NCBI RefSeq assembly: GCF_900156025.1
Contig: NZ_FTMO01000001.1
Location: 434,001-498,000 of the forward strand
DNA: 64,000 bases
Direction: 5' to 3'
Source: Allobosea sp. TND4EK4
GTDB taxonomy: Bacteria > Pseudomonadota > Alphaproteobacteria > Rhizobiales > Beijerinckiaceae
Shown here: one piece after another, positions 31,246 to 34,521 of the stretch
How positions within the stretch are numbered: position 1 is the first letter of the stretch
Layout of the letters: each line of letters opens with the position of its first letter
Translations under genes and position numbers: made by a program
The notes under the pieces: model-generated
Databases searched by the model: none
Seen by the model: only the letters and a program-made list of their open reading frames with translations
What the model was told of the DNA's origin: nothing

Positions 31246-32844
31246 TTATGCCGTCGCGCCGGCCTTCACCAGCTTGTAGGTGATCGAGTCGACCAGCGCC
31301 TGGAAGGACGCGTCGATGATGTTGGCGCTGACGCCGACGGTGGTCCAGCGCTCGCCGCTCTCGTCGCCGGATTCGATCAGCACGCGGGTGACAGCGTCGG
31401 TGCCGCCCTGGAAGATGCGGACCTTGTAGTCCACCAGCCGCAAGCCGCCGATCAGCGACTGGTAGCGGCCGAGATCCTTGCGCAGCGCGATATCGAGCGC
31501 ATTGACCGGGCCGCTGTCGCCTTCCGCCGCCGAGATCAGCAGTTCGTCGCCGACCTTCACCTTCACGATCGCCTCGGAAAAGGTCACGAGCTCGCCCAGT
31601 GCGTTGTAGCGGCGCTCGACATTCACCTTGAAGCGCTCGACCGCGAAGTAGTCCGGGACCTCGCCGAGGATGCGCTTCACCAGCAGGAAGAAGGAGGCGT
31701 CGGCGCCCTCGAAGGCATAGCCCTGCGCCTCCTTGTCCTTGACCTCCTGCAGCACCCGGTTCAGGCGCGGATCGTCCCGCCCCAGCGTGACGCCGATGCG
31801 CTCCAGCTCGGCGACGAGATTGGACTTGCCGCCCTGGTCGGAGATCAGGACCTTGCGGGTGTTGCCCACCGCCTCCGGCGCGACATGCTCATAAGTCCGC
31901 GGGTCCTTGAGCACGGCGGAGGCATGAATGCCGGCCTTGGTGGCGAAGGCCGATGCGCCGACGAAGGGCGCGTGGCGGTTGGGAGCGCGGTTCAGCATCT
32001 CGTCGAGCGCGCGAGAGACATGCGCCAGATCGGCGAGTTGCGCGTCGTCCAGCCCCAGCACGAAACGGCCGCGATAGCGCTCCTTCAGCTTCAGGGCGCC
32101 GATCAGCGTGACGAGGTTCGCATTGCCGCAGCGCTCGCCGAGGCCGTTCAGCGTGCCCTGGATCTGGCGCGCTCCGGCCTCGATCGCCGCCAGCGAATTG
32201 GCGACGGCGCAGCCGCAATCGTCATGGGCGTGGATGCCCAGATGATCGCCGGGCACGACCTTCGCCACCTCGCGCACGATGGCGCCGACCTCGTCCGGCA
32301 GCGTGCCGCCATTGGTGTCGCAGAGCACGACCCAGCGCGCGCCTGCATCATAAGCCGTGCGGGCGCAGGCGAGCGCATAGTCGGGATTGGCCTTGTAGCC
32401 GTCGAAGAAATGCTCGCAGTCGAGCATGACCTCCCGGCCGGCGGCCTTCGCGGCCTCGACGCTCTCGCGGATGCCGGCGAGATTGTCCTCGAGCGCAATC
32501 TCGAGCGCGACATGGACGTGGTAGTCCCAGCTCTTGGCGACGAAGACGATCGCATCCGCCTTCGCCTCGAGCAGCGCGGCGATGCCGGGATCGTTGGCGG
32601 CCGAGCGACCGGCCCGCTTGGTCATGCCGAAGGCGGCGAATTTGGCGTGTTTCGTCGGCTTCTCCGCGAAGAAGGCAGTGTCGAGCGGGTTGGCGCCGGG
32701 ATAGCCGCCCTCGACATAGTCGATGCCGAGCCGGTCGAGCAGGGCAGCGACCGCGCGCTTGTCGTCGAGCGAGAAATCGACGCCGGTCGTCTGCGCGCCG
32801 TCGCGCAGCGTCGTGTCGAAGAGATGGATGCGCTGGCCGGTCAC
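31246..32844 (-). CDS. cimA: (R)-citramalate synthase
   Basis: A 532-residue enzyme of the LeuA/CimA family, condensing pyruvate and acetyl-CoA to citramalate on a threonine-independent route to isoleucine. FDTTLRDGAQTTGVDFSL (active site), GTLNGLGERCGNANL and HAHDDCGCAV (metal site) are seen, followed by a LeuA-type C-terminal regulatory domain. The start is a GTG at 32844 that overlaps the stop of a 36-codon ORF (GTGA), which is itself coupled to an ORF following cysS. Confidence 0.93.
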   Translation of the reverse strand: MTGQRIHLFDTTLRDGAQTTGVDFSLDDKRAVAALLDRLGIDYVEGGYPGANPLDTAFFAEKPTKHAKFAAFGMTKRAGRSAANDPGIAALLEAKADAIVFVAKSWDYHVHVALEIALEDNLAGIRESVEAAKAAGREVMLDCEHFFDGYKANPDYALACARTAYDAGARWVVLCDTNGGTLPDEVGAIVREVAKVVPGDHLGIHAHDDCGCAVANSLAAIEAGARQIQGTLNGLGERCGNANLVTLIGALKLKERYRGRFVLGLDDAQLADLAHVSRALDEMLNRAPNRHAPFVGASAFATKAGIHASAVLKDPRTYEHVAPEAVGNTRKVLISDQGGKSNLVAELERIGVTLGRDDPRLNRVLQEVKDKEAQGYAFEGADASFFLLVKRILGEVPDYFAVERFKVNVERRYNALGELVTFSEAIVKVKVGDELLISAAEGDSGPVNALDIALRKDLGRYQSLIGGLRLVDYKVRIFQGGTDAVTRVLIESGDESGERWTTVGVSANIIDASFQALVDSITYKLVKAGATA

Positions 32845-32951
32845 GGTTTGCGCCGCAGCTTGAAGCGCAGCACGCGCGGCATCACCATCGCGAGCATGAC
32901 GAGCTTGATGGCGACGGAGAGCGAGCCGGCGGGGCGGATCTTCGGGGTCAT
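32841..32951 (-). CDS. Putative 36-residue small protein translationally coupled to cimA
   Basis: A short ORF starting [10 protein letters not shown] with a hydrophobic centre (LSVAIKLVMLAMVM) and a basic end (RFKLRRKP), possibly a membrane-associated peptide. The ATG overlaps the stop of the preceding micro-ORF (ATGA) and its TGA overlaps the GTG start of cimA (GTGA). There is no strong Shine-Dalgarno sequence (GAAAAAGAAACG only). Coding is inferred from the overlap pattern; no homologue is known to me. Confidence 0.45.
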   Translation of the reverse strand: MTPKIRPAGSLSVAIKLVMLAMVMPRVLRFKLRRKP

Positions 32952-33003
32952 GACGTTTCTTTTTCTGGCTTGATGAGGATGGTGTCGGGCCGTGTGTCGC
33001 GGT

Positions 33004-33007
<4 letters not shown>
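32948..33007 (-). CDS. Putative 19-residue micro-ORF coupled to cysS
   Basis: A 20-codon ORF whose ATG overlaps the cysS stop (ATGA) and whose TGA overlaps the next ORF's ATG (ATGA). The peptide includes [10 protein letters not shown], reminiscent of the first beta-strand of GNAT acetyltransferases (ILIRPE-type), so it could be the remnant of a deleted gene between cysS and cimA. Its role, if any, may be to pass ribosomes from cysS to the next ORF. Confidence 0.35.

Positions 33008-34521
<1,514 letters not shown>

Follow-up and report, generated by a model that had tools for sequence, protein, structure and literature searches.

A conserved small gene in the overlapping cysS-cimA chain of Bosea, and small hydrophobic proteins near cimA in other families

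Small membrane proteins encoded in operons are known, CydX being an example, and attenuation leader peptides are familiar as short ORFs that lie directly before a branched-chain amino acid gene. Like CydX-type proteins, which have about 30-60 residues, the predicted product of the small gene described here (ORF2) has one hydrophobic helix and is encoded in an operon; unlike them, it resembles in sequence none of the described families held by the libraries that were searched. Termination-reinitiation coupling at ATGA and GTGA overlaps has been described (PMC6728339, PMC10666635), and the pairs treated in these accounts resemble the present locus in that the genes are co-directed, share a 4-nt stop/start overlap and often have no Shine-Dalgarno (SD)-like site at the downstream start. 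The locus differs from known overlap coupling in that a very small gene sits between two enzymes, and in that the slot before this gene changes its gene content between species while the joints are kept. Both coupling at overlaps and membrane proteins of this small size are thus known in kind, whereas the family to which ORF2 is here assigned and its address between cysS and cimA look undescribed in the libraries and literature searched. If this is true, a small-protein family is absent from the family libraries searched, and its tight address would make it easy to tag or delete in laboratory rhizobia. A housekeeping operon would moreover be a host site that exchanges cargo genes at its stop/start joints, and this is relevant to how overlapping genes come to be chained together and stay so.

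The chain in the window and the conservation of ORF2

The window analysed here is a stretch of 64,000 nucleotides from Allobosea sp. TND4EK4 (contig NZ_FTMO01000001.1, positions 434,001 to 498,000), on whose minus strand two micro-ORFs lie between cysS (cysteinyl-tRNA synthetase, 505 aa, 33004..34521) and cimA (citramalate synthase-like, 532 aa, with a GTG start, 31246..32844). A first-pass annotation had named these two as the end genes of the chain, and the Pfam domains of both agree (tRNA-synt_1e at E 6.7e-98, CysS_C and DALR_2 for cysS; HMGL-like at E 2.4e-51 and LeuA_dimer for cimA). The three 4-nt start/stop overlaps that it claimed are all read directly from the minus strand: ORF1 (19 codons, 32948..33007) starts on the cysS stop at an ATGA (33004..33007), ORF2 (36 codons, 32841..32951) starts on the ORF1 stop at a second ATGA (32948..32951), and cimA starts on the ORF2 stop at a GTGA (32841..32844), the last of these joints being conserved in Bosea. 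The micro-ORFs are not alike: ORF2 is a real gene and ORF1 most likely a scar.

Two sets of loci were compared. The genus set comprised 37 Bosea genomes including the window, from which G026, G028, G031 and G034 were dropped as having no usable junction, leaving 33 assessable genomes. The second set, of 40 loci, is mostly Bosea with the rest from other or unplaced Hyphomicrobiales and largely repeats genomes of the genus set; counts over 42 loci add the window and G009 to it. ORF2 was found in 32 of the 33 assessable genomes, between cysS and cimA and co-directed with them, and the sole genome without it is G016, where cysS overlaps cimA directly. Its start lies on the cysS stop in 12 of these 32 genomes and something intervenes in the remaining 20, while its stop overlaps the in-frame cimA start in 31, the exception being G029, in which the frame is lost. 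The same joint is in frame at all 42 loci of the second, overlapping set, also where the N-terminus of cimA is longer (up to 65 codons before DTTLRDG, as against the usual 6-7). Over the 30-codon core of 41 distinct ORF2 sequences pN/pS is 0.327, whereas the two alternative frames give 0.92 and 2.19, and 14 residues are invariant among 15 distinct Bosea sequences. At the level of sequence, ORF2 is thus shown to be a real gene that is conserved and selected as a protein, and its 4-nt overlap with cimA persists in nearly all of Bosea. The search for conserved micro-ORFs across relatives, which the first-pass annotation had proposed as a check, succeeded for ORF2 but failed for ORF1, the frame of which is broken at five of nine loci (see below).

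The hydrophobic centre and basic tail ascribed earlier to the ORF2 peptide are borne out, and AlphaFold2 predicts a single helix spanning residues 9-33 (mean pLDDT 78.8). The product is probably membrane-bound, although a true membrane span of the Bosea protein is uncertain because the helix is short and carries a lysine and a proline. Searches of Pfam, NCBIfam, PADLOC and PHROGs with ORF2 returned no matching family, and no match was obtained in the PDB at E<=1.

Small hydrophobic proteins upstream of cimA in other families

When the region upstream of cimA was scanned for hydrophobicity in 60 further genomes, five showed small hydrophobic ORFs, one of them Bosea, and a like scan of 14 other genomes found them in G055, G058 and G037. 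Seven of these scan sequences and three from Bosea made up a first profile, which was run against 297 genomes of the order. Among its 36 untrained matches at E<=1e-3, a few of which belong to genera that had contributed to the profile (G098, G310 and the second copy in G095), 32 lie on the same strand within 1.5 kb upstream of cimA. As for the other four, the match in G250 abuts cysS, cimA not having been found in that genome, those in G244 and G092 are located away from cimA, and that in G150 is false, a better match in the same genome lying near cimA. The reverse strand, used as a control, gave no match at E<=1 against 50 on the forward strand, a count that includes the training rows and 33 from Bosea. 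Across 192 genomes of the class, three weak matches (E 2e-4 to 3e-3) were obtained besides the own genome.

A second profile of 30 aligned rows, Bosea included, matched 64 of the 297 genomes of the order at E<=0.01. A family member is dispensable, since the other 233 genomes have no match and G016 is without ORF2. At E<=1e-4 this profile gave 59 matches in 57 genomes from 11 families of the order, with 56 of the matches at most 1.2 kb upstream of cimA, two beside cysS (G250, and G061 at a contig end) and one elsewhere (G244). As most rows of the second profile came from the locus itself, the test of linkage to cimA is given by the 36 untrained matches and not by this census. The predicted proteins are hydrophobic, 32-57 residues long and have one aligned lysine in common, and in all 11 of these families they are encoded between cysS and cimA. 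Outside Bosea, the starts of 30 of the 48 matches overlap the stop of the preceding gene, which is cysS in 19 cases, GFA in seven and GNAT in four, as judged by eye from the last 25 residues with one GFA and one GNAT protein checked in Pfam. Two copies share a single cysS-cimA interval in G095 (C19:156395-156547 and 157053-157187). In G244 a clear member (E 1.9e-17) is found on contig C75 (L221), apart from cysS and cimA (contig C36), and the neighbours of this displaced member might hint at a partner.

When 30 members were compared with Pfam and NCBIfam, only single-member matches resulted (best E 0.0021 and 0.0012, respectively), which were taken as chance, and the family profile found nothing below E 3.1 in the PDB; PHROGs, compared with three members, and PADLOC, compared with one, held no fitting family. 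A literature search returned no paper on a small protein at cimA or cysS, or on citramalate synthase operons in Rhizobiales, and the main text of a study of the small proteome of S. meliloti (PMC10117765) has no occurrence of 'citramalate', 'cysS' or 'cimA'.

It is likely that Bosea ORF2 is homologous to the wider family, as suggested by its position, its overlaps, the aligned lysine and the VLRxK end. Against a profile free of Bosea sequences, ORF2 accounts for 33 of the 34 matches in Bosea regions; the values themselves are modest (E 0.0077 to 4.8, with 0.1 for the window, the best reverse-strand control match being 1.2), and hhalign of Bosea against family f20 gives a probability of 11.9%. 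Weak links of this kind would also be expected if ORF2 were a small gene specific to the genus that merely resembles the unrelated proteins that other families encode between cysS and cimA, and two further observations favour such an origin: a PFPxHW-like stretch before the helix, frequent in relatives, is absent in Bosea (as well as in the f20 and f27 rows), and most other sampled genera of the family of Bosea are without a member. We nevertheless regard an independent origin as rather unlikely, in view of the nearly exclusive recovery of ORF2 by the Bosea-free profile and of the same interval and overlaps of the same kind in Bosea and the other families. Lys16 of ORF2 is aligned in all 30 chosen rows, a column that may be forced because the alignment includes Bosea, and the VLRxK end is common to Bosea ORF2 and family f20.

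Probable coupling along the chain, ORF1 and the cargo genes

The account that we favour, and hold as a whole to be fairly probable, comprises a coupled cysS-cimA slot, a selected ORF2 peptide, an ORF1 scar and reinitiation along the chain. The interval would be a translationally coupled slot in which the upstream neighbour of ORF2 varies, being cysS, a cargo gene or a scar. Ribosomes ending cysS would restart at the overlapping codon, aided by the SD-like GGAGGTGA within the 3' end of cysS (33012..33019, minus strand, 4 nt ahead of the ORF1 start codon), would then traverse ORF1, a scar that by chance stays open, and would restart at ORF2 to yield a 36-residue inner-membrane peptide. A further restart would take place at the cimA GTG, which has no SD-like tetramer of its own. 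Selection would maintain the ORF2 peptide and not merely the act of its translation, and the peptide, produced in step with the operon, would most likely serve a membrane complex as a small accessory protein; the operon itself suggests no partner for it, as the neighbours are soluble enzymes.

An SD-like tetramer is found at the GGAGGTGA position in 34 of 40 loci. Before cimA such a tetramer is present at 25 of 42 loci, and for this reason coupling need not be the only route to cimA; it is absent at 17, the window among them. Translational coupling from ORF2 to cimA is likely from the arrangement of the genes, and the hand-over of ribosomes into cimA suggested in the first-pass annotation is plausible in view of the conserved joint and of the cimA start in the window. 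Neither micro-ORF is needed for the junction, since cysS overlaps cimA directly in four genomes, three from other families (G042, G053, G054) and G016. The near invariance of the ORF2-cimA overlap in both sets, together with the 17 loci at which cimA has no SD-like tetramer, could also mean that ORF2 is only a translational relay that delivers ribosomes to the cimA start, its peptide having no function of its own. This is unlikely because selection acts on the peptide, as the pN/pS value and the invariant residues indicate; in addition, the similar proteins of other families are often encoded ~500 nt upstream of cimA, unjoined to it, and G016 manages without ORF2. A selected ORF2 peptide is thus the preferred reading.

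The slot before ORF2 is variable. In the 40-locus set, ORF2 lies directly on the cysS stop at 14 loci, follows a short spacer (49-84 nt) at six and is preceded by cargo genes at 20. With domain names taken from Pfam, the cargo consists of a nucleotidyltransferase and HEPN pair at five loci, which we take to be toxin-antitoxin-like, an unclassified protein of 207 residues (P207) at eight, and DUF559 at ten, one of them decayed, the last two kinds being presumably nuclease-like; two kinds occur together at three of the 20 cargo loci. The nucleotidyltransferase-HEPN pair matches PADLOC PDC-S09 at E 2.4e-25, while P207 has no match in Pfam or NCBIfam and weak matches to PADLOC PDC-S70. GFA queries, like GNAT queries, match none of the 40 intervals at E<=1e-3. 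Of the 13 Bosea genomes whose interval is long, 11 have an intact first cargo gene that begins on the cysS stop overlap, and in ten of them (all but G025) the stop of the last cargo gene overlaps the ORF2 start; no such cargo gene starting on the cysS stop was seen in the long intervals of G006 and G029. In G019, five consecutive 4-nt overlaps connect cysS to cimA. The cargo between the two housekeeping genes changes among L157, L153, L154, L189 and other loci. More tentatively, the interval may be a long-lived coupled slot in this order, with a resident family of tiny lysine-bearing membrane proteins, in which nuclease-like, toxin-antitoxin-like, GFA, GNAT and glyoxalase genes are gained and lost without breaking the chain, in Bosea exactly at the ATGA/GTGA joints; the peptide would then work together with a membrane complex or with the operon enzymes and not be a by-product. 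This extended reading is less likely than not.

Low-complexity stretches (PSPLAGEGWGEG ... ARPPSPARGEG) stand in frame at the N-terminus of cimA at L171, L175, L181 and L188, and similar PSPLAGEGWGEG ... ARPPSPARGEG stretches stand in frame at the starts of DUF559 cargo in G001, G004, G005 and G010, as if a repeat element were inserting without breaking the frame.

ORF1 is probably the scar of a lost cargo gene, in keeping with the earlier idea of a gene remnant, as cargo genes occupy the same place in 20 of the 40 relatives. The GNAT origin proposed for it is not supported and was rejected: an intact GNAT gene was sought in the 40 intervals of relatives, mostly Bosea, and the queries matched none of them, GNAT being found in the interval only in other genera, where the proteins start with stretches like LRPFLPADA, unlike ORF1. 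Of the nine cargo-free loci with a short spacer, four keep ORF1 open with both overlaps, whereas its frame is broken at the other five. For instance, the spacer of G009 has the same length as that of the window and differs at four of its 56 positions, one of the changes creating a stop in ORF1. The double overlap of ORF1 is not beyond chance, because the ATGA at each end is part of a neighbouring gene, and random spacers of 40-90 nt simulated between two ATGA ends gave a double-overlap ORF in 21.8%. At this chance rate of 0.218 per locus, four open loci of nine are unremarkable (binomial P = 0.11 for at least four). The contention that the overlaps exceed chance consequently stands for the ORF2-cimA joint, with its frame kept in 31 of 32 Bosea genomes, but not for ORF1. 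A working coupling peptide encoded by ORF1 would find some encouragement in the four open loci, slightly above the two expected; it is nonetheless quite improbable given the five broken loci, G009 among them, and a sequence that is not conserved between the clades of compared loci. Given the broken frames, ORF1 as a conserved relay was rejected, and with it the conserved coupling role that had been attributed to it.

The 3' 32 nt of ORF1 resemble the ends of the HEPN gene (L153) and of P207 (L157), with 0 of 500 shuffles reaching the score in each case, and these are the two lowest results among the 26 loci compared with the ORF1 3' end; as several scars also score p 0.004-0.02, no single cargo is named as the source. 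An MNRD start was found at several DUF559 cargo starts.

That the chain is an attenuation leader tying amino acid supply to cimA is highly improbable: although a short ORF does stand immediately upstream of a branched-chain amino acid synthesis gene, ORF2, unlike such leaders, has no run of regulatory codons (only two Ile in 36), overlaps cimA so that no gap is left for a terminator before the structural gene, and has its sequence kept as a helix, and the predicted consensus RNA fold is without covariation support (covariation term +0.87, double changes in 3 of 37 pairs), on which ground an RNA switch or attenuator was set aside. The regulatory link once suggested between Cys-tRNA charging and citramalate (isoleucine) synthesis is not supported, the co-location of the two genes being all that is left of it.

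A hypervariable segment within cysS

Within Bosea, residues ~345-455 of cysS (the DALR region; 33157-33489, minus strand, in the window) are hypervariable. Among 32 Bosea genomes, mean pairwise identity is 88.7% over residues 1-330, 50.4% over this segment and 86.3% over the last 38 residues, and the segment falls into 15 clusters at 70%. Minima of low identity in the same segment were also noted in g20, g40 and g64 (26-35%), not in g36 and g39. It looks as if a single segment of an essential enzyme had been replaced again and again.
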